Below are positions 47,307 through 61,022 of a stretch of DNA of 64,000 bases, piece after piece. Position 1 is the stretch's first letter, and the number at the start of each line of letters is the position of its first letter. The position numbers were made by a program, and so were the translations under genes. Under the pieces are notes generated by a model. It worked only from the letters and a program-made list of their open reading frames with translations. It did no database searches and was not told the DNA's origin. Source of the stretch: a virus; the IMG/VR virus record IMGVR_UViG_3300027969_000044, positions 1-64,000 of that record; one strand, written 5' to 3'.

Positions 47307-49595
47307 ATGATATTGGAACCAAACAGCGATCTTGAACAGATTTTTGAAAGAGCAGTTAATCTTGCCATTAAGAATCAGCACGAGTATATAACACTTGAGC
47401 ATTTCTTACACAGCATGGTCGTTGATCAAAAGTTTGGAGCATTGCTCAAGGACTTTGGAGCAGAGGTAGCTGACCTAAAAGCTAACCTAGAAAACTTCAT
47501 CGATAAAGAACTAGACGATATCAAGGTAGTTGCTAAAGATCAAAAGCCAAAGAAAACAAACACAGTTGAGCGTATGCTTAATCGTGCGTTTACACAGGTA
47601 TTGTTTAGCGGACGTAATGTAATTGATCCAGTTGATTGCTTTATTAGCCTGTTTGCCGAAAAGAAGAGTTTTGCCAACTACTTTTTACGTAAAGCTAAAG
47701 TAGACAAAGATGCGTTTATTAAATGGATTAATGAAGAAAATTCTAAAGACGAAGAAGAAGGCAGCGAAGGCGGCCGTGGTGGTGGTAGAGACTTAGATCG
47801 TTTGATTGGAAAGTATTGTGTTAACCTAACACAAAAAGTAAAGAACAAACAAATTGATCCTGTTATTGGCCGCGAAAAAGAGATCGAAGAAATTCAACTG
47901 GTACTTGCTCGCCGTACAAAGTCAAACGTTATGATGATCGGTGATCCGGGTGTAGGTAAGACTGCTATTGCTGAAGGTCTAGCACGTAAGATCTTTGAAG
48001 GTAGCGTTCCTAAATTTATTTTAAATCACACAGTTTATAGTCTAGACATCAGTGCTATGATCGCAGGTAGCAAATATCGCGGTGACTTTGAAGAACGTTT
48101 GAAAGGTGTTATTAAAGCACTTGAAAATAAGAAAGACGCTATTTTGTTTATCGACGAAGCACACATGATGAATGGTGCTGGATCAGCAGGTAGTGGTTCT
48201 AATGACATGTCTAATATGCTTAAACCAGCATTGGGCAAAGGTACTATTAAAGTTGTAGCAAGTACAACATGGGAAGAGTTCCGTAAACACTTTGAAAAAG
48301 ATCGTGCGTTGATGCGTCGATTCCAGCGTGTAGTTGTTAACGAACCTAACGAAGCTACCGCCATTAAGATCATCAAAGGTCTTAAAAAGTATTACGAAAA
48401 ACATCACGGTGTTAAGATTACAAATCAGGCCATTATTGATAGTGTTAAGTATTCTATCAAATACATGACTGATAAGAAGTTGCCAGATAAGGCAATTGAC
48501 TTAATTGACTGTGCGTGTGCTCGCTTTAAGGTTAGAGATCAGGAAGCAGGTATTGTTGATCACGACGAAATCTTGTTTGAAGTTAGTAAGATCGCAAACT
48601 TGCCTTTAGATCAAATTGCATCTAAAGAAAACAAGAATCTTGTTAACCTTGAAAAGAATATGCGTGGTAAGGTGTTTGGTCAAGAGAAAGCAATTGAAAT
48701 TCTGCTTGATAAAATCTTTATCGCACAAGCAGGGTTAAAGAGTATTAACAAACCAGTTGGTAACTTCTTGTTTGTTGGTCCAACTGGTGTTGGTAAAACT
48801 GAAACTGCTAAACAATTAGCAAGTAATATGAGTGTAGAACTTGTTCGCTTTGATATGAGCGAATTCCAAGAACAACATTCTGTTGCCAAGTTTATTGGTG
48901 CTCCTCCGGGATATGTGGGCTTTGAAGACAACGCAGGTCAGTTGATCACTAAACTACAAGAACATCCTAACTGTATCTTGTTACTTGACGAGATTGAAAA
49001 AGCTCACCCAAGTGTAGCAAACGTTCTACTACAACTTATGGATAACGGTTATGTTACTGGTTCAAATGGAAAAGTAGCAGACGGTCGTAATTGTATTTTG
49101 ATTATGACCAGTAACCTAGGTGCCGCTGATGCTGAAAAGAACGCGGTAGGATTTGGCAGTTTAGAACGTGATGATGACAGCAAAGATGCTATTAACACAT
49201 TCTTTAAACCCGAGTTTCGGAACCGTTTAGACGGCATTATCAAGTTTGGCAAGTTGGATCAAACTACTATGGTTAAGATTGTTAAGAAGTTTATTGACGA
49301 ACTTAATTCATTGTTAAAAGATCGCCATGTTCATGTTAAGCCCGATGCTGACGCAGTTGAGCTATTGATCAAGAAAGGCTTTAACAGTAAAATGGGCGCT
49401 CGTCCACTAGCACGTACTATTGACGACTTAATCAAGAAGCCGTTAAGTAAGCAGATTCTTTTTGGCAACTTACAAAATGGCGGATTAGTAGAAATACTAG
49501 TTAAAGGCGATGACCTTATGCTAAATTACATCGAAACATTACCAGTTGTTGATGTGAAAGCCGAAGAGATACAAATTGAAGACGCTGGAAACTAA
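47307..49595 (+). CDS. clpA: ClpA-type AAA+ unfoldase
   Basis: This 762-residue protein has a Clp N domain (about 1-150), then two AAA+ modules with Walker [10 protein letters not shown] (212-220) and GPTGVGKTE (491-499), [10 protein letters not shown], and [10 protein letters not shown]. The length and the lack of a long ClpB-type middle coil match ClpA. At the place of the ClpA IGL loop, before EIKKIF-like [11 protein letters not shown], it has [12 protein letters not shown] (V614-G615-F616), close to the IGF/IGL tripeptide used to dock on ClpP. It should therefore feed substrates to ClpP, perhaps the phage's own. It lies directly after def. Confidence 0.93.
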
Positions 49596-50764: not shown

Positions 50765-51154
50765 ATGAAACTTCTCGAATTCTTCGGAAAACCTATAGAA
50801 ATACACCAGGATAAAAACGATTCCCGTAAACCGGGAGAAGATCCTAAGTTAAATCGCGAAGAAGAAGATCAGCTTGCTAACGATATATTAGAGTATATCC
50901 TTAACAACGACGAGCTACACAAAAAGCAGTTTTTACCCGTAGCAAGAAAACTCCACAAAAACCCAACAACACATCACAAGCCTGATGTATGGCTACCTTT
51001 AGTAAACAAAGGATGTATGGAGTTTTACAAAGAACGAGATATGAGTGGCGATCCAATGGATCTATTCAATAAAGAATTTAGGTCTGACTTATGTAAGAAA
51101 TTTTCAGACCATAACAAACACATCCTCATGGGTGAATACAATCTCGGAAGATAA
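50765..51154 (+). CDS. Conserved phage protein, possible internal head protein
   Basis: This 129-residue helical, charged protein begins MKLLEFFGKPIE, like the short hydrophobic N-termini of the next four genes, but lacks the exact L/I-x-E site. The body (EEEDQLANDILEYILNNDEL, then FLPVARKLHKNPTTHHKPDV) has no known fold. It is the first gene of the 50.8-56.6 kb cluster and ends three bases before the large polyprotein-like gene. Confidence 0.65.
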   Translation: MKLLEFFGKPIEIHQDKNDSRKPGEDPKLNREEEDQLANDILEYILNNDELHKKQFLPVARKLHKNPTTHHKPDVWLPLVNKGCMEFYKERDMSGDPMDLFNKEFRSDLCKKFSDHNKHILMGEYNLGR

Positions 51155-51157
51155 CCC

Positions 51158-54100
51158 ATGCTATTAAATGAATTTTTTAAAAGATCATTAACCGAGGGCG
51201 GAAATCTTGCCATTGGTCAAGATCAAGCGCAAAGCATTGATTTAAAAGTACACAACAGAGCTTTTATAGTTCCTATACTTACAAAACTATTATACGGAAT
51301 TAACGATGGGTTTGCCGCAGTTAATCAAAAGCCATTGTGGAATCCCGCCCTATTACAAAAGGGAGAATTCCTAAGCGGCTCTAGTTTACATTTCTTCAAC
51401 ACAAAGATTCCCGACGAGCAATTTGAAAAAGTTAAACCTAAAGTAGGCGACATTGACACACAAGTTGATAAGTTAATGGAGAAAGAACTAGAAGGATGGT
51501 TAAACTCTGTTAAGGGTAAACTTATTGGCGGAGGTAAGTTAATTGGCTTTGAGAGAGGCAACGAGCAATACAGTAGTCTATGGGAATTACAAGACCCTCC
51601 TATTAAAATACAAATTGACTTAGAGTTTGTTGCGTTTGACAAAGAAGAACCAACAGCATGGAGTAAATTTAGTCACTCAAGTGATTGGGAAGATATACAA
51701 GCAGGTGTCAAAGGTGTATTCCACAAATGGTTGATACAGTCATTTACAGATCTAACTACTCGTGATTTCTTATTGCGTAAACTAGTAGGTCGCGGCAAAG
51801 CCCGTGTTGAGCAAGATGTACCTGCCAATGACAACTTATTATCCTTTGCTGTTAGCAGTAAAGAAGGTGGCGGACTACGTCCTAAGTACGAGCCAGTGAC
51901 AGACGAAGCTGGACAGCCGTTAATTGTAGACGGGCTACCTGTTATGCGAGCATTGCCTCCTGCGGGATACGAACAAGACATTGGTAAGATATTTGCTCTA
52001 ATCTTTGGAGACAGAATTGATCCTAAGAAAGCAAAACAACTAAGCACTAAGTTTTGGTCATTTACTGGCTTGCTAGATGTAATGACACAGGTGTTAAGTC
52101 CTGAAGAACAACAACAAGTTGTACAGGCATTTATACATAAACTGTATGACAAGGGCGCACAAGGTCTTTATAAAAATGATCCAGAACGTGATGCCGAAGA
52201 AAAAGATGCCGCTATGGCCAAGATGCTTGAAGTATTAAAAATAGCGCCTCCTCCAGAACTAGCACAGATGAAGCAGTCATATCAAGCAAATTACAGAATG
52301 ACTACAAATGAAAGCCTGCGTGAAGCTGAAGAACCAGCACCAGTTAAGGCACAGCTACGCAAAGGTATGCCACACTTACACGATCTAAAGGCTCCTGATT
52401 TTTTAGACCTATTAGATGAGATTCACGACGGCAACGGTAACTTCAAGTTACAAAACGTTCCATTAAATGTCAAAGTAGACGGCTTTGGTGGACGATTTGG
52501 TAAAGATGCTAACGGTAAACCATTCATGGGTACTAGCCGAACAGAGCCACGTTACGAAGCCAGCTTTGTCAAGTATCATCAACAAAAGGGCACAACAGAT
52601 CCAGAGATCTTAGGTCGTGCTCAAATGTTTGACGACTTGTTTAAAGAAATGATGAACGCTATTAAACTAGTCGATGGCAAACTAGGCCCAGACTTTTTAA
52701 TCAACAAACAAGTAACTTGTGAAGTATTGTTCTTACCATTTGCTACACAAACTGACGAAGGTCGTTTAAAGTTTGTGGGCATTGAATACGATCAACTACC
52801 ACAAGGTGTACAACTGGCACTAGTTCCATTTCATGCTGTAGAAGCAGATAGTGGAGAGCCTGTTGAAGATCCAGAATTTATTGATAGCTTACTTGAAGTA
52901 GGTAATCAAGGTAGTGTTATGTTTATTAACAATAGACTAGCACAGAAAGAAGGACTTGACGTTACAGAAATTATCAATGTATTAGATAACATTGAAGAAC
53001 TAAAACAAATTGTATCTGATACAGCAGGCAAGCGTGACCGCGCTAGTCTACAGTTAAAGAAAGAAGTAGAAGAAAAACTACAACCTATTAAAGATCAATT
53101 AGAGCAAGCAATTATTAAAGATCCTAACATTATTGGAAAAGATATGTTAGGTAAAGACTATGAAGGCATTGTTATTAACAGTCGTCTCGGTCCTATCAAA
53201 ATTACCAGTCAAGAACAGCGTGATGTTATCAGTGCCAAGTTAGATGCTAAGAAAAATGCTCGCACAGAACGTCCCCGTGATAATCAAAACAAGACAGCAG
53301 TAGTTGCCATTGGTAGCTTTGTTGGACACAAGGGTCATCAAGAACTTTGGCAGTATACACAACAAGAAGCCCAAACACTGGGCGGCGATCCGTATTTGTT
53401 CATCGGTAATGCCGAAGGCAAAGACGATCCTATTCCTGTTCCCGACAAACTTAAAACATGGCACATGTTGTATCCGCAGTTTGCCAAAAACATCAGCGCG
53501 GTTACGCACGAAGGTGGAAGCATTATGCAGAAGATTAAACACGAGTTGATTAATCCTTTACCAGGCAAGCCTCCACGTTACGACAATATTGTTATTATGG
53601 TTGGCGAAGATCGTAAAGACTTACCGTTAGGTAAAGCTCTAATGAAAGCTGTTAATAAGTTTCCAGGATACGAGCACGTTAAAGTAGACTTAAAAGTTAC
53701 TCCACGTGGTCAAGGAGTAAGCGGCACTGCTCTTAGAAATATTCTAAAGACAGGCAACCCTAACCAACAATACACATTCTGGAATGACACATTTAACGGT
53801 GGCAAGTTTGGATCACAACAATTAACTCCAGAATGGATTAAACACCTAATGGATGTAACCAAGAAAGGTATGGGCATTACTACCCCTTCAGTTACAGCAC
53901 CAATTAAGAAACAGGAACAACCAACTATGGCTAAACCTCAACAACCAGTACAGCAACAGCAACCAGAGCAAGAGCCGTTAGCTGAAAGTATCCGTAGAGA
54001 AATTATGATTACTCGAGCAGAGATTGCTTGGCAGAAAGAATTGTCGGAAGCAAGGATGAGTGCTGCCGTTAAACTTCAACGAGCCTTTGATAGAGAGCGT

Positions 54101-55633
54101 TCTAAGAGTGACGCTAGTCGTCAACGTGCTGACGCGGCCAAGGCAGCGTTTGAGAAAGAGTGGAAAGCTAAACAAGAAAAAGAAAAGCAAGGTGTGGCAG
54201 AAGATTTAGAAACAGGACATGTGCAAATGCTTTTACATAAAGCATTACAGGCACGCAGAGAAGGCAAACCATTGCAAAGTGTAATGCGTAAAGAAGAAAT
54301 TGCATTATTATCTATGTTGCAAGGAAGTGGAAAACTACAAGGTATGGTTAAAAATAAAAGTGTAGGCGAGGCGCCAATTGAAATGGATCCTGCAGAACCA
54401 ATGAATCCTACAATCTACGGACATCAAGGAGTTAACTCTGCCGAATTAAAAACTCGCATGATGCGAGCTCAAGGACAATTAGCAGACCTGGCAAAGAGAG
54501 CACAAAACGCTAGCCCAATTGAATGGGAAATAATTACACGTAATTTTAAAGAGTTGTCAATGAACATTGAACAGATTCGTCACGCACTAGAAGAACTAGC
54601 TAAAGTTCGCAAGCGTGGTGGGATTCGATCTAGAGGCATTGATAAAAATATTGGTGAGCAAGGTGTGGCGGAAGGCTTATTAGACCCTTCTAAAAGAACT
54701 CAGCTTATTCGTTTCCTAGCAAAGAAAATGGATTGGGAAGTTAACTATCTCGAACTTGCTACTGATCATGAACTTATCAAATGGTACAAAAAAGTACAAG
54801 CCGGTCAAGATCCAATGAAGGAAGATTCGGTAAATGAATTAGTTGGTTATAAAAGCGATAAAAATTATCTAGCGGTAGGTACCCATAAACGATACGATGT
54901 ATATGTGGGTAAAAAGAAGTTTAATAATTTATACTTTATTGCAATTGCAGAAAATCCAAGAACATTAGATGCTAAATTTAAAGCCAAGGGCAATACTCCA
55001 CAAGAGGCAGTAAATAATTTAAAATTAGAAATTGATAAAGAAATTGATGTTGCTACCAAAGTTAGTGGTGCGGCTATATTAGATTTTAATGTAGATTTTG
55101 TAAAAGAAATATTAGAAATGAGTATTGATACGTTTTACGCTAAAATTATTTCAGGTCCTAAATTAGTAATAGCAGGTAGAGAAATGATGGAATACCCTGA
55201 TATTATGAAAAGTGAAGGGTTTAAACCTAGTACCATTAGAACTTACAAAGGCGGAGAAGGTACTACTAAACTACCCGGAGTACCATTAAGCGCCGGAGCG
55301 GCTGCGGCTGCAAGTCTTATTGCCAACGGTAGATATGTATTAGGCGCAGAAACTACAGATAAAGACGGTAACAGAGTATTCAATTTAGAATTTGATAGCG
55401 TTGTTCAAGCATCAAACGATAAAATGAGATTAAGAGCACCTGCGGTTACTGTAGGAACTAATAGATCACAAGGTGTTGCGGAGGCCGGTAAGATTAAGGG
55501 CGCTGACGGTAAAGCCTGTTGGAAAGGTTATAAGTACGCAGGTACTAAGAACGGTAAAGACAAGTGTGTTCCAGTTAGCGAAGATGCGGAACAACTAATG
55601 GCAGGTTTTATTAAGTTGTTGGAATCAAAGTAA
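51158..55633 (+). CDS. Multidomain ligase/nucleotidylyltransferase, probable polyprotein
   Basis: This 1491-residue protein has several parts. The N-terminus MLLNEFFKRSLTE is capsid-targeting-like. A domain of about 330 residues is unassigned. A covalent nucleotidyltransferase (ligase) domain follows, with K439-V-D-G (PLNVKVDGFGGRFG), TCEVLFLPFA, E669-GIVI (YEGIVINSRLG) and K681 (PIKITS). A cytidylyltransferase-type domain has H724-K-G-H (GSFVGHKGHQEL), VGEDRK and VSGTALRNIL. The C-terminal 550 residues are strung with LAE or QGVAE sites (E943, E1015, E1172, E1442) between helical modules, ending in KACWKGYKYAGTKNGKDKC. Head-protease cutting is inferred. It may act as an injected repair or NAD-type enzyme. 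Confidence 0.75.
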   Translation: MLLNEFFKRSLTEGGNLAIGQDQAQSIDLKVHNRAFIVPILTKLLYGINDGFAAVNQKPLWNPALLQKGEFLSGSSLHFFNTKIPDEQFEKVKPKVGDIDTQVDKLMEKELEGWLNSVKGKLIGGGKLIGFERGNEQYSSLWELQDPPIKIQIDLEFVAFDKEEPTAWSKFSHSSDWEDIQAGVKGVFHKWLIQSFTDLTTRDFLLRKLVGRGKARVEQDVPANDNLLSFAVSSKEGGGLRPKYEPVTDEAGQPLIVDGLPVMRALPPAGYEQDIGKIFALIFGDRIDPKKAKQLSTKFWSFTGLLDVMTQVLSPEEQQQVVQAFIHKLYDKGAQGLYKNDPERDAEEKDAAMAKMLEVLKIAPPPELAQMKQSYQANYRMTTNESLREAEEPAPVKAQLRKGMPHLHDLKAPDFLDLLDEIHDGNGNFKLQNVPLNVKVDGFGGRFGKDANGKPFMGTSRTEPRYEASFVKYHQQKGTTDPEILGRAQMFDDLFKEMMNAIKLVDGKLGPDFLINKQVTCEVLFLPFATQTDEGRLKFVGIEYDQLPQGVQLALVPFHAVEADSGEPVEDPEFIDSLLEVGNQGSVMFINNRLAQKEGLDVTEIINVLDNIEELKQIVSDTAGKRDRASLQLKKEVEEKLQPIKDQLEQAIIKDPNIIGKDMLGKDYEGIVINSRLGPIKITSQEQRDVISAKLDAKKNARTERPRDNQNKTAVVAIGSFVGHKGHQELWQYTQQEAQTLGGDPYLFIGNAEGKDDPIPVPDKLKTWHMLYPQFAKNISAVTHEGGSIMQKIKHELINPLPGKPPRYDNIVIMVGEDRKDLPLGKALMKAVNKFPGYEHVKVDLKVTPRGQGVSGTALRNILKTGNPNQQYTFWNDTFNGGKFGSQQLTPEWIKHLMDVTKKGMGITTPSVTAPIKKQEQPTMAKPQQPVQQQQPEQEPLAESIRREIMITRAEIAWQKELSEARMSAAVKLQRAFDRERSKSDASRQRADAAKAAFEKEWKAKQEKEKQGVAEDLETGHVQMLLHKALQARREGKPLQSVMRKEEIALLSMLQGSGKLQGMVKNKSVGEAPIEMDPAEPMNPTIYGHQGVNSAELKTRMMRAQGQLADLAKRAQNASPIEWEIITRNFKELSMNIEQIRHALEELAKVRKRGGIRSRGIDKNIGEQGVAEGLLDPSKRTQLIRFLAKKMDWEVNYLELATDHELIKWYKKVQAGQDPMKEDSVNELVGYKSDKNYLAVGTHKRYDVYVGKKKFNNLYFIAIAENPRTLDAKFKAKGNTPQEAVNNLKLEIDKEIDVATKVSGAAILDFNVDFVKEILEMSIDTFYAKIISGPKLVIAGREMMEYPDIMKSEGFKPSTIRTYKGGEGTTKLPGVPLSAGAAAAASLIANGRYVLGAETTDKDGNRVFNLEFDSVVQASNDKMRLRAPAVTVGTNRSQGVAEAGKIKGADGKACWKGYKYAGTKNGKDKCVPVSEDAEQLMAGFIKLLESK

Positions 55634-56040
55634 TGCTATTAACACAGCTATTTGAATCAGCAACTAATGACGCAACCCTAATGGATATGTTGCCTACGTT
55701 CTTACCTTTAGCTTTAGAAATTTTAGAATTACGCAACGTGCCTAATATTAAATTAGAAAAGTTTATTGACGACGAAGTACAACCTACATTTGGTAAATTT
55801 GTCAGTGATGAGAACATAATTTACTTAGGAATTGCCAACAGACACCCTGTAGATATTTTACGTACACTGGCACACGAAATGGTACATTATAAACAAAACA
55901 TAGAGCACGATCTAGATAGCGAATCAGGTCGCACAGGAAGTCCTCAAGAAAATCAAGCACATGAAATTGCCGGAGTTATTATGCGAGAGTTTAATAAAGC
56001 AAATCCAGAATTCCTAAAAGCTAGGCCATTAGAGTTTTAA
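55633..56040 (+). CDS. Small HExxH metallopeptidase-like protein
   Basis: The protein has 135 residues. H81-E-M-V-H85 (TLAHEMVHYKQNIEHDL) is a zincin motif, and HEIAGVIMREF (H110, E111) follows at a distance suited to a third ligand. The N-terminus MLLTQLFE|SAT has an L-x-E site as in T4 capsid-targeting peptides. If so, it is packaged in the head and delivered with the DNA. A structural HExxH without activity cannot be excluded. The stop/start overlap with the preceding gene is one base. Confidence 0.75.
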   Translation: MLLTQLFESATNDATLMDMLPTFLPLALEILELRNVPNIKLEKFIDDEVQPTFGKFVSDENIIYLGIANRHPVDILRTLAHEMVHYKQNIEHDLDSESGRTGSPQENQAHEIAGVIMREFNKANPEFLKARPLEF

Positions 56041-56046
56041 TAAATA
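56040..56046 (+). promoter_or_regulatory. Late-type box 5 nt before ATG
   Basis: ATAAATA (56040-56046) begins at the last base of the peptidase stop codon. The next ATG is at 56052, with only CCCAT between. No Shine-Dalgarno lies close by, so a leaderless late transcript is predicted. Confidence 0.55.
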
Positions 56047-56051
56047 CCCAT

Positions 56052-56435
56052 ATGAGAGCAAACGAATTTATTTCTGAAAATCGCAAAGCAGGCAAAGTAA
56101 AGAAACGTGCCGCGGCTGTACAGCAAGGCATTAGAAAGTCTCGCGATGTTGGCGGATATGATCGTGTAAATCACATGAATCGTTTGTGGATGGCAACTGC
56201 TATGGCAGACGGCCAAAGTAAAAAAGGTGTAGATATGGATAGTTACAGTTGGATGGAAAAATACAACACACAACATCCATATACACAAGAAGAATACAAT
56301 ATGTTCAGGCAAGCAGAAAATACTGTCCCAACGGATAGTAAAGAAGTTACACCATGGACAAAGAGTGTAGAGCCAGAAGATACTTATAAAGTAAGTCCGT
56401 CCTCTACATGGAATGTTAAGAAGAAAAAGAAATGA
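56052..56435 (+). CDS. Probable internal head protein, basic
   Basis: This 127-residue basic protein starts MRANEFISE|NRKAGKVKK. I-S-E at residues 7-9 fits the T4 gp21 cleavage rule (L/I-x-E), and the remaining body is Lys/Arg-rich (KKRAAAVQQGIRKSRDVGGY, later SSTWNVKKKKK). T4 internal proteins IPI-IPIII have this design: a short targeting peptide and a basic packaged body. No enzyme motif is seen. It overlaps the next gene by four bases. Confidence 0.65.
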   Translation: MRANEFISENRKAGKVKKRAAAVQQGIRKSRDVGGYDRVNHMNRLWMATAMADGQSKKGVDMDSYSWMEKYNTQHPYTQEEYNMFRQAENTVPTDSKEVTPWTKSVEPEDTYKVSPSSTWNVKKKKK

Positions 56436-56608
56436 AGATTAGAGAATTATTAGAAGCGGCAAGTAGCGGAGCAACTGGCTCCGGTTCTATTGCGACCGTA
56501 ACTAATCCTGGTGGGAAACCAGCTAGTCAAGTAGGATCTCTGTTTGGTGGTACTTACGGAGAATCTAAAAAAACTAAACCTAAAAAATTTATTAAGAGAC
56601 CGCAATGA
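56432..56608 (+). CDS. Short probable internal head protein
   Basis: This 58-residue frame has MKIRELLE|AASSGATGSGSI at the start, with L-L-E at residues 6-8 as a head-protease type site, a Gly/Ser-rich middle and a basic tail (KKTKPKKFIKRP). I recognise the MKIRxLLEAAS-GAT pattern as frequent in marine T4-like phages. It is framed by four-base overlaps on both sides. Confidence 0.7.
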   Translation: MKIRELLEAASSGATGSGSIATVTNPGGKPASQVGSLFGGTYGESKKTKPKKFIKRPQ

Positions 56609-57645
56609 CTAAAAAAATAAAAGAAATTAGTACAGGTGACTATTACTCTAAAGCACACAAGGGGAAAATTTCTGCAGCATCTAAAATGATGTTTGCTGAT
56701 CCTGCTAAGCCAGAAGTACAAAAAGCAATGCGTGACTTTAAGAATAGAGACGCAGGAATGAAACGTGTTTCAGCAAGAAATCAAAAAGCCAGACAGACAA
56801 CTGCTGATAAGAACCGTCAGGGTGCCCTTGCAGCCGATAAAGAAAATCTTCCAGCGTTAATGGCACAGTTTCAAAAGCTAAGAGGTCAGTATGATCCTAA
56901 TTTTGAATACAGTGACGATCACAGTTTTTGGTCAAAGCAAAAAGATATCCAGCAACAATTAAGTGCGTTACAAAAACGTATTAACGATGCTGGTGGAAAA
57001 GTATCAGAGGGAACTAATCCCGAGTATGACGACGAAGCAGGTATGTCTGATAATAATCTAGAAACACTGAGAAGAACAATCGACGGCATAGATGGTTTGA
57101 TTAAGCCCGGTGATAATTTACCAGAATGGTGTCAGGAAAAAATTGCTGTTGCCAAATCTATGTTAGTAGCAGTATGGGACTACATGCAGTCCGAACAGGA
57201 AAGAGGCGCAATGGAAGGTGTTGGCGATTTAGGATATGACGCACAATCTTTAATAATGAAACTGCGACGAGATGTTGAAGAAAAAAGATTACAACCAACT
57301 CCGCAAGCAGTATTAGCGGCCGCATCAGAATTAGCAGGAGATATGAAATTTGCTCCTCAACTACTAGTTCAACAAGTCTTGGGCAAGGGTGTAGCAGAAG
57401 GCGGTGTTAAAGAATGGAAAAAGGGAGTCAAGGCTCCGGTTAAACCACGTAACTTTGTAGCCAAAAATGCGTCAACTGGCGGTGCTGGCGCACATAAAGA
57501 TAAAAAGAAAGATGCTAAACAAGGAAAAGCCAAGCATAAAAAAACTCCAGAGTTAGCCGAAACAGCAACATATGATCGTAGATTAAATGTATTATTAGAA
57601 GCGAAAATGCTAACTAGCCAAATTAGAGATTATAGAAAGAAATAA
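56605..57645 (+). CDS. Probable internal head protein with GVAE/LAE sites
   Basis: This 346-residue, highly charged helical protein (NQKARQTTADKNRQGALAAD; LMAQFQKLRGQYDPNFEYSD) has cleavage-like sites GKGVAE|GG (E265) and PELAE|TAT (E319), the same strings as in the 1491-residue protein. Between them lies a basic module (KPRNFVAKNASTGGAGAHKD, then KKKDAKQGKAKHKK) that I recall from other marine phage proteins. The end, NVLLEAKMLTSQIRDYRKK, resembles the N-terminal targeting type. It is probably packaged and cut during head maturation. Confidence 0.65.
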   Translation: MTKKIKEISTGDYYSKAHKGKISAASKMMFADPAKPEVQKAMRDFKNRDAGMKRVSARNQKARQTTADKNRQGALAADKENLPALMAQFQKLRGQYDPNFEYSDDHSFWSKQKDIQQQLSALQKRINDAGGKVSEGTNPEYDDEAGMSDNNLETLRRTIDGIDGLIKPGDNLPEWCQEKIAVAKSMLVAVWDYMQSEQERGAMEGVGDLGYDAQSLIMKLRRDVEEKRLQPTPQAVLAAASELAGDMKFAPQLLVQQVLGKGVAEGGVKEWKKGVKAPVKPRNFVAKNASTGGAGAHKDKKKDAKQGKAKHKKTPELAETATYDRRLNVLLEAKMLTSQIRDYRKK

Positions 57646-58352: not shown

Positions 58353-61022
58353 ATGAGTTATGTAGATGCGATCTGGAATCGCGACGACAACGTTATTCGC
58401 GTCGTTGAACGCGATCCAAAAAAGGGTAGAATCTTTACAGACTATCCAGCAAAGTATATTTTTTACTATCCCGATCAAAGGGGCAAGTACAAATCAATTT
58501 ACGGTGAAAACCTATCAAAAGTTCAATGTAAAGACTTTAAAGAATTTGCTAAAGAACAAAGAATCCATAGTGGACATAAGTTATACGAAAGTGATATTAA
58601 TCCAATCTTTCGTGTACTAGAAGAAAACTATCTAGGACAAGACTCCCCAAATTTAAATGTAGCGTTCTTCGACATTGAAGTAGACTTTGATCCAGAACGT
58701 GGCTACGCATCACCTGAAGATGCGTTTATGCCAATTACTGCAATCAGTGTCTACCTACAGTGGATGGAAACAATGATTACTCTGGCTATTCCTCCAAAGA
58801 CTATGACTATGGAGCAGGCCAAGGAAGCTGTTAAAGAGTTTTCAAATACTATACTGTATGAAAATGAAGGAGAGATGCTTGATGAGTTTCTCAACTTAAT
58901 TCAGGACGCAGATGTTATTAGTGGTTGGAATAGCGAAGGATTCGACGTTCCGTATACCGTTAATCGTGTTACTAAAGTCCTAAGCAAAGAGGACACACGT
59001 AGATTCTGTCTGTGGGACAAGTTTCCCAAGAAACGTGAATATGAAAAATATGGTAAAGATGCTGTAACATATGACTTCCACGGTCGTGTACACTTGGACA
59101 GTTTAGAATTGTATCGCAAGTATACATATGAAGAGCGCCATACCTATAGACTAGATGCTATCGGTGAAATGGAAATTGGCGAAAGCAAAACTGTCTACGA
59201 AGGTACATTAGATCAACTGTACAACAATGACTTTCGAAAGTTTATCGAATACAACAGACAAGATACTTTCTTGTTAGACAAACTAGATAAGAAGCTAAAG
59301 TTTATTTCTCTTGCCAGTACCGTCGCTCACGAAAACACAGTATTGTTACAAACAACAATGGGTGCGGTAGCTGTAACTGAACAGGCTATTATTAACGAAG
59401 CCCATCACAGGGGACTCATTGTTCCTAGTCGTCCAAAACGTGATGAAACTAAAGACGCACAGGCCGCAGGTGCTTACGTTGCGTATCCAAAGAAAGGCAT
59501 TCATGATTGGATTGGTTCGTTAGACATTAACTCACTATACCCATCTGTCATTCGTGCGTTGAACATGGGTCCGGAAACTATCATTGGGCAGTTGCGTCAA
59601 GATTACACGCAAACAGAAATTGATGCTAAGATAGCTAAAGGTTCTAGTTTTGCCGCGGCATGGGAAGGTAAGTTTGCGTCTAACGAATATGAATTTGTTA
59701 TGGCAAAGGACAAAGCCAACGAAATCATTATTGACTGGGAAGATGGAAACACCAATGTATTAACTGGTGCTCAAGTATACGATCTAATATATGAAAGCAA
59801 TCAACCGTGGATGCTCAGTGCCAACGGTACAATCTTTACGCATGAACATGAAGGTATTATTCCTGGACTACTAGCACGTTGGTACAAAGAACGTAAAGAT
59901 ATGCAGAAGAAATTAAAGGAAGCTATTAATGCTGGAAACAAAATTGAAGAAGAATACTGGGATAAACGTCAGCTCGTTAAAAAGATTAATCTTAACAGCC
60001 TGTACGGTGCTATTCTCAACGTTGGTTGTCGTTTCTTTGACAATCGTATTGGTCAATCAACCACACTTACTGGGCGAGCCATTGCTCGCCACATGGCCTC
60101 AAAAATAAATGAAGTCGTTACTGGCGAATACAATCATTTAGGTAAAGCTATTATCTATGGTGATACTGACTCTGCTTATTTTAGTGCGTATGCTAGCCTT
60201 AAGAAAGACATTGACAAAGGTTCCATTCCTTGGGACAAAGAAACTGTTATTCAAATTTACGATCAAATCGCAGATGAAGTTAACGGAACATTTCCACAGT
60301 TTATGTTAGATGCGTTTCACTCTCCAAAGTCTCGTGGAGAAGTTATCAAAGCAGGTCGAGAACTTGTTGCGATCAAAGGCCTATTCATTACCAAGAAACG
60401 CTATGCTGTTCTTTATTTTGATAAAGAAGGCAAGAGAAGTGACATAGAAGGAAAGCCGGGCAAGATCAAAGCCATGGGCTTAGATTTGAAACGCAGTGAT
60501 ACTCCAGAATTTATGCAAAAGTTTTTAGAAGAACTTCTAACTAAGGTACTTAACGGTAGCAAGGAAGAAGAGATTCTAGACCGAATTGGCGAATTTAGAA
60601 CTGAGTTCAAAGCTAGACCCGGTTGGGAGAAAGGTAGTCCGAAAAGGGCTAACAATATTACAGAGTACGAGGCCAAAGAAAAGAAAGCTGGCAAAACAAA
60701 TATGCCAGGCCACGTTCGGGCCAGTATTAACTGGAATACACTAAAACGTATGAACGGAGACAAATACTCTGTAAACATCGTTGACGGTATGAAGGTTATT
60801 GTATGTAAGCTAAAAGCCAATCCACTAGGGTATACATCAGTTGCGTACCCAGTTGACGAATTACGCTTACCAAAGTGGTTCCAAGAATTGCCGTTTGATC
60901 ACGGGGAAATGGAAACTACTATTATTAATAACAAACTGGAAAACCTTATTGGAGTTCTGGAATGGGATTTAGAATCGACTACACAAGATAACACCTTTGG
61001 TAGTCTGTTTAGTTTTGATTAA
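58353..61022 (+). CDS. 43: Family B DNA polymerase (T4 gp43-like)
   Basis: This is a complete 889-residue polymerase. The proofreading exonuclease has D107 and E109 (AFFDIEVDFDPERGY) and later SGWNSEGFDVPY. The polymerase has motif A SLDINSLYPSVIRAL (D391), motif B KKINLNSLYGAI and motif C YGDTDSAYFS (D604, D606). The length and order equal T4 gp43, and all catalytic acids are intact. It works with gp45 (next gene) and the gp44 loader. AGGAGA precedes the ATG. Confidence 0.97.
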   Translation: MSYVDAIWNRDDNVIRVVERDPKKGRIFTDYPAKYIFYYPDQRGKYKSIYGENLSKVQCKDFKEFAKEQRIHSGHKLYESDINPIFRVLEENYLGQDSPNLNVAFFDIEVDFDPERGYASPEDAFMPITAISVYLQWMETMITLAIPPKTMTMEQAKEAVKEFSNTILYENEGEMLDEFLNLIQDADVISGWNSEGFDVPYTVNRVTKVLSKEDTRRFCLWDKFPKKREYEKYGKDAVTYDFHGRVHLDSLELYRKYTYEERHTYRLDAIGEMEIGESKTVYEGTLDQLYNNDFRKFIEYNRQDTFLLDKLDKKLKFISLASTVAHENTVLLQTTMGAVAVTEQAIINEAHHRGLIVPSRPKRDETKDAQAAGAYVAYPKKGIHDWIGSLDINSLYPSVIRALNMGPETIIGQLRQDYTQTEIDAKIAKGSSFAAAWEGKFASNEYEFVMAKDKANEIIIDWEDGNTNVLTGAQVYDLIYESNQPWMLSANGTIFTHEHEGIIPGLLARWYKERKDMQKKLKEAINAGNKIEEEYWDKRQLVKKINLNSLYGAILNVGCRFFDNRIGQSTTLTGRAIARHMASKINEVVTGEYNHLGKAIIYGDTDSAYFSAYASLKKDIDKGSIPWDKETVIQIYDQIADEVNGTFPQFMLDAFHSPKSRGEVIKAGRELVAIKGLFITKKRYAVLYFDKEGKRSDIEGKPGKIKAMGLDLKRSDTPEFMQKFLEELLTKVLNGSKEEEILDRIGEFRTEFKARPGWEKGSPKRANNITEYEAKEKKAGKTNMPGHVRASINWNTLKRMNGDKYSVNIVDGMKVIVCKLKANPLGYTSVAYPVDELRLPKWFQELPFDHGEMETTIINNKLENLIGVLEWDLESTTQDNTFGSLFSFD

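Follow-up and report, generated by a model that had tools for sequence, protein, structure and literature searches.

A gene cluster of probable T4-like internal head proteins in an uncultured phage, with mosaic polyproteins jointed at predicted prohead-protease sites

The DNA stretch analysed here (the window) comprises the first 64 kb (64,000 nucleotides) of the 166,311-bp virus record IMGVR_UViG_3300027969_000044 from IMG/VR, a T4-like phage with a family-B DNA polymerase gene at position 58353. The analysis extended to the remainder of the record (loci L002-L007). Six consecutive genes on its plus strand, between positions 50765 and 57645, probably form a cluster of T4-like internal head proteins, including two mosaic polyproteins (genes at 51158 and 56605). 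Such polyproteins would travel under one tag, be cut by the gp21 prohead protease and be ejected with the DNA, their modules being reshuffled at a short DNA linker. The protease gene, the tags, the mosaicism of the modules, the consensus at their joints and the breakpoints at joints and linker can be read directly from the sequence. Cleavage, packaging and ejection, and recombination as the mechanism of reshuffling, are inferred. A short N-terminal targeting peptide would draw each chain into the prohead core, where gp21 would cut after the Glu of [LIVM]-x-E, most often in the form Q/K/E-G-V-A-E, thereby removing the tag and parting the modules. The freed modules would stay with the DNA and be ejected into the next host, while homologous recombination through the linker of ~20 bp would swap modules in frame. 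Since one tag would carry the whole train, any module jointed at both ends could be added.

A gp21-like protease, which the original prediction for this DNA had anticipated elsewhere in the genome, is indeed present as a Peptidase_S77 gene at genome positions 131816-132448 (E-value 4.6e-27). It belongs to a head cluster at 128-135 kb comprising the portal, a short MLLNEFIYF protein, a gp67-like acidic protein, the gp21-type protease, a gp22-like scaffold and gp23, and the cognate protease and T4 head genes are thus encoded in the same genome as the putative capsid-targeted proteins. One tagged gene lies in this head cluster (130336-130590, MLLNEFIYFNE...), where relatives keep it between the portal and gp67-like genes, and another lies near it (123818-124660, MKIAELITE...).

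In T4, tags of 7-19 residues are removed by gp21 after L/I-X-E, and an Asp at position 10 of IPIII prevents processing (PMC9026906). The N-termini on which the original prediction rested were all found: MKLLEFFG (50765), MLLNEFFKRSLTE (51158), MLLTQLFE (55633), MRANEFISE (56052) and MKIRELLE (56432). Five of the six genes begin with capsid-targeting-like peptides, the exception being 56605; a tag of ~7-19 residues ending in L/I-x-E is seen in 51158, 55633, 56052 and 56432, and loosely in 50765. Relatives keep these N-termini, but the bare motif near the start, to which the prediction had given weight, is weak evidence when taken alone, as it occurs within ~13 residues of the start in 16 % of the genes of this genome (21/130) and in 22 % of the other genes in related loci. 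Because the bare motif is so common by chance, we relied on comparison with relatives. What is unusual is the occurrence of L/I-x-E in six consecutive genes, the agreement with the T4 template M-[KR]..E-[FL]-[IL]-x-E and the conservation in relatives; the template is found in 42 % of chain-bearing genes against 12 % of other genes (p 3e-12).

The comparison can be followed gene by gene (a slash marks the predicted cut). The gene at 50765..51154 is a conserved neighbour of the polyprotein gene, and its same-locus relatives begin with MLLNEFFG, MKLYEFFG or MKLYEFFS. The 1491-aa polyprotein encoded from 51158 has its predicted capsid-targeting peptide MLLNEFFKRSLTE at 51158..51196, with a predicted cut after SLTE, before GGNL. 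In its orthologues, which were reached through loci related to 56605, the tags (MNLNELF...VVSE, MLLTEFFKIVNE and MLLNQFF..KLFE) end in VVSE/GGNL, IVNE/GGNL and KLFE/GGNL. Homologues of the first module in the isolates Vibrio phiKT1024 and Xanthomonas X1 begin with M-GGN, which is exactly the predicted mature end, and the homologue in Campylobacter CP220 reads MKLSELMFILE/GGN. The HExxH metallopeptidase-like protein at 55633..56040 (phrog_87, metallo-protease; MLLTQLFE/SATND) has stand-alone relatives tagged with MKIRDLLFE, MRARDFLLE or MRAKEFIIE, and further relatives inside polyproteins, after MFLNE, ESVNE or ESLRE. For the 127-aa protein at 56052..56435 (MRANEFISE), the relatives begin with MRAKEFIVE, MRAKEFINE, MKINEIITE or MKISELLE.

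The 58-aa protein at 56432..56608 provides a connection with the head protease. It reads MKIRELLE/AASSGATGSGSIAT, and comparison with the gp23 of this phage and its relatives indicates a copy of the gp23 maturation-site region. The predicted maturation site in the same phage is KYLAE/AATSGATSSGNIAT (KYLAE/AATSGATSSGNIATLNRV with an alternative extent), and those of relatives are E/SATAGATSAGNVAT, HLVE/SATAGATSAGNVATLNRV, LLE/NATAGATSAGNVAT, YLKE/NASAGSTAAGNIAT and similar strings. The consensus for phage and relatives, x-L-x-E/[ASN]A[ST]xG[AS]T, is repeated in 56432 after its tag, and relatives of 56432 read MKIRDILE/SATAGATSSGNIAT or carry the tag MKIKELLE. As the stretch around a classical gp21 site recurs directly after the tag of this small protein, the Glu of the tag is tied to the head protease.

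The joints between modules are a general feature. Contigs of uncultured viruses show QGVAE in several hundred different surroundings, joining modules which occur in different orders, and one module can have different modules directly after GVAE. Even in loci collected through their homology to 56605, with the motif playing no part in the selection, QGVAE appeared in 30 distinct contexts where 0.2 were expected. A degenerate DNA scan of viral contigs for KQGVAEG returned at least 120 stretches, with 87 of the 91 examined matches in frame; the control, a reversed peptide of equal degeneracy, returned 29 in the whole collection. In local alignments among 218 non-redundant chains, homology starts at [LIVM]xE 574 times against 251±14 and ends there 371 times against 136±11, although these breaks are not fully independent, modules being common to several chains. 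Boundaries with no GVAE-like joint near them are enriched as well (276 starts against 127±10 and 134 ends against 64±7.5), and no such enrichment at module boundaries was found in these chains for [LIVM]x ending in D, K, Q, N, A or R. The simple number of [LIVM]xE motifs was dropped as evidence, since the 28 in the 1491-aa protein are close to the expectation from composition.

The residues of the joint differ markedly in their constraint. Among copies that depart from the joint DNA by no more than two bases, the Glu codon took 9 synonymous changes, no replacement and one stop, and Val changed 11 times, 8 times to Met and once to Leu, whereas Gln and Gly varied freely (27 and 13 replacements). 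Glu is thus nearly invariant, P3 mostly hydrophobic and P4/P5 free, a pattern which, as far as sequence can indicate, would be expected of a gp21 site. The original prediction had raised the question of whether these strings are conserved while the linkers vary, and alignment of homologues bears this out: the Glu at P1 and the hydrophobic P3 are kept, and linkers and neighbouring modules vary. A ParB-like module, for example, can have any of QGVAE, QGMAE, QNVAE, KKLTE, DLANE and SSLSE, or the tag MRAYEFVVE itself, before it in the same register. Before the EYDDEAG module, 37 of 39 contexts show a Glu that is at most one column away from a fixed position, and P3 is hydrophobic in 26.

At the DNA level the joints also form a linker. 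The codons are near-uniform (GGT 193, GTG 172 and GCG 182 of 198), GCG encoding the joint Ala in 92 % of cases against a background of 11 %, and unrelated joints share 81 % of codons against 58 % for conserved residues in homologous flanks. Conservation extends over a block of ~20 bp around the joint, read in frame as GVAE in 178 of 179 cases, and then stops sharply. Where different chains share stretches of at least 85 % DNA identity, these begin at the linker 88 times against 15±4 and end there 83 times against 16±4. Among the GVAE joints of the window, three of the four have drifted synonymously with GVAE kept. The conservation could have been due to an internal translation start, an idea rejected because no conserved start codon follows the linker; site-specific recombination at a palindrome was also rejected. 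As the linker has no dyad, homologous exchange is preferred, and exchange through a shared, frame-keeping linker is the simplest reading. When 84,980 genomes of bacteria and archaea were searched for the 20-mer of the linker, only 2 matches came up, neither coding GVAE in frame. In one viral genome (L115), two chains starting at 2198 and 4439 have a module in common that is 99.4 % identical in DNA across 167 nt, and one copy must have arisen recently within that genome.

The repeated strings in the two long proteins were located as predicted, with QGVAE at 54188, 54659 and 55469, KGVAE at 57385, PLAE at 53975 and PELAE at 57547, and further joints, not listed in the original prediction, were recognized at SLRE (52324), SVGE (54370), SVNE (54838) and KVSE (57009). 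The mosaic module system that the joints define, the conservation of the joint as DNA and the existence of non-GVAE joints likewise go beyond that prediction. Module A of the 51158 polyprotein (residues 14-389, 51197..52324, phrog_19290) ends at SLRE and is likely a nucleotidyltransferase (NTase) of the Pol-beta fold, judging from its fold matches, which are weak yet agree in pointing to NTases and Pol mu/beta; the structure models have low overall confidence (mean predicted local distance difference test, pLDDT, 60-64) and were used for fold class alone. Modules B-C (residues 390-943, 52325..53986, phrog_12709 and phrog_3041 cytidyltransferase) end at PLAE. Their first part may be ligase-like by its motifs (KVDGFGGR, EGIVIN), and the second half is an HxGH nucleotidylyltransferase with fold matches to FAD synthetase, NMNAT and PPAT. 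The joint QGVAE follows at residues 1011-1015 (54188..54202), the module upstream of it being also present in relatives L013 (91 %) and L271 (68 %). SVGE (residues 1068-1071, 54359..54370) starts a separately moving module, with homologues covering only ~1060-1170. The next QGVAE (residues 1168-1172) lies at 54657..54676, where the ~20-bp linker is present in full as AGCAAGGTGTGGCGGAAGGC, and SVNE follows at residues 1224-1227 (54827..54838), between modules 1160-1230 and 1220-1440, which do not have the same relatives. The last QGVAE (residues 1438-1442, 55469..55483) is encoded by CAAGGTGTTGCGGAG, which departs from the consensus of the linker by two synonymous changes and leaves the peptide intact; it precedes a C-terminal CW..GYK..CVPV module (55484..55630) common to orthologues of very different length. 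Four same-locus chains of 958 to 1541 aa share modules A, B-C and this C-terminal end. Their A/B border reads SLRE, SLQE, RLFE or SLNE, and in L259 a whole extra module is inserted there, between SLNE and SLAE. The 346-aa mosaic protein at 56605..57645 has joints at KVSE (57009), KGVAE (57385-57399) and PELAE (57547-57561); its modules 133-203 and 270-320 occur in many contexts, with 210 related stretches in viral contigs.

A Pfam search of the window genes gave no match; in the chains of relatives it recognized amidoligase, ParB_N, GNAT, deaminase, LysM, SLT and GH19 (chitinase-like) domains. Several disparate conflict or host-modifying domains are thus found per polypeptide, as in polyvalent proteins, both in these chains and in 51158 (NTase, ligase-like, nucleotidylyltransferase). 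Export signals work only at the N-terminus. In six cases twin-arginine translocation (Tat) signals are found inside chains, a few residues past GVAE or LEE joints, positions which would make sense only after a cut; in L100 the Tat signal is at the real N-terminus. Tat-like (RRGFLKG) signals following joints inside polyproteins are seen in L079 (1-1554), L113, L130, L152, L173, L178 and L289, and Sec-like hydrophobic segments after GVAE resemble them. Some of these chains also have LysM/SLT modules, as if they were injected enzymes destined for export from the host cytoplasm. We regard it as reasonably likely that in a widespread uncultured T4-like lineage one in-frame linker of ~20 bp serves both as recombination joint and as prohead-protease site, so that plug-in cassettes assemble, package and inject changing sets of effectors from one polyprotein, some with Tat-like signals which become N-terminal only once cut.

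The joints might instead be a DNA-level recombination linker and nothing else, with an incidental GVAE that is never cut. The nearly fixed codons, the sharply bounded block and the recent exchanges that break there are what such a linker would produce. Yet where the linker is missing, module boundaries show enrichment for [LIVM]xE alone, the Glu takes synonymous and not replacement changes, Tat signals and tags stand in register with the joints, and the peptide survives synonymous drift at three of the four GVAE joints in the window; we consider this explanation unlikely. That the chains are cut by a host protease or another phage protease, with no need for packaging, is quite improbable. HExxH modules do occur in the cluster (55633) and inside some chains, and release by embedded peptidases has been proposed by Iyer et al. 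(PMC5512222). Against this, the joints resemble head-protease sites, sharing the consensus and the P1' side of the sites at which gp23, the classical substrate of gp21, is matured; the tags at the N-terminus resemble those of T4; and many chains have no obvious peptidase. As to release by an embedded peptidase in particular, 51158 gave no peptidase match, whereas some other chains hold HExxH modules. It is very hard to believe that these are ordinary multidomain cytoplasmic proteins with frequent linkers and a chance likeness at the N-terminus. L/I-x-E does arise by chance in 16-22 % of N-termini, and GNAT, ParB, deaminase and amidoligase are common phage domains; the excess of the tag template in chain-bearing genes, the replacement constraint at the linker site and the stand-alone homologues in isolates beginning exactly at the predicted mature end all speak against it.

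A gp21 gene was found in 20 of 78 joint-bearing records, the present one included, and in all 11 motif-bearing records with a full gp23 among the first 30 tested. Several observations weigh on the other side. No gp21 was found in the remaining 58 of the 78, and those tested were also without T4-type gp23 (18/19, the other having one fragment) and portal (19/19); searches of gp21-less records with a second gp21 profile, Portal_T4 and Peptidase_S78 gave nothing. Three large records, G010 (343 kb), G018 (262 kb) and G026 (262 kb), have GVAE chains, and T4-type gp21, gp20 and gp23 were not found in them. Such records are either incomplete or have another head and protease. Moreover, 56605 (MTKKIKEIS...) has no canonical targeting peptide, P3 is V/M at least as often as L/I, unlike the L/I-X-E of T4 gp21 (PMC9026906), and conservation of the linker DNA taken alone could reflect recent spread instead of recombination.

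Among known systems, T4 IPI, IPII, IPIII and Alt are the nearest, with a short N-terminal tag ending in [LI]xE, a prohead protease of the same family and variable cargo by a conserved head; however, they lose one N-terminal propeptide, whereas here one tag heads chains with several joints and interchangeable modules. The polyvalent proteins of phages and conjugative elements (Iyer et al. 2017, PMC5512222) are likewise long and multidomain, with ParB, GNAT, metallopeptidase and other domains, and their entry into the host together with the DNA has been predicted. They differ in that here the head protease would release the modules in trans, cutting at a short standard joint that is also a shared DNA linker. 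Prohead proteases cut the T4 core proteins gp22, gp67 and gp68 and the long propeptides of SPN3US at several sites (PMC9026906, PMC10052503), as predicted here, but those fragments are mostly scaffold or propeptide debris leaving the head, while the fragments here are conserved, recognizable domains. No description of such a system was found in the literature searched (preprints were outside its scope). Isolated phages essentially do not have the modules: one chain (L126) had no match among them, and another (L142) was matched only in part, coverage of the query always staying below 80 % and being 12-15 % for the matches listed.

If correct, this proposal would explain much uncharacterised phage protein sequence, and orphan-looking modules would be injected effectors predictable from joints alone. 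The question of which phage proteins are injected would become a sequence search that gives module boundaries and mature N-termini. A DNA linker serving recombination and protein processing together would show concretely how mosaics can evolve within single genes. It also suggests, for engineering, that one tag could load several cargo proteins into a T4-type head.

Some further observations concern expression and neighbouring genes. The T4 late promoter word TATAAATA is absent from positions 1-64000 of the window, where 6.3 copies are expected, which suggests avoidance. TAAATA words stand before 50765, 56052 and the gp67-like gene and are too weak as proof of late expression, and NATAAATAC-like words are present upstream of 50283, 50765 and 56052. 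Upstream of the cluster lies a Clp-type ATPase gene (47307-49595), also seen in relatives L066 and L015. In relatives, the same cluster includes a small Dps/ferritin-like protein (FYLKAHNFHWNV; L015 9470-9904, L259 6569-7006, L120 4258-4698).

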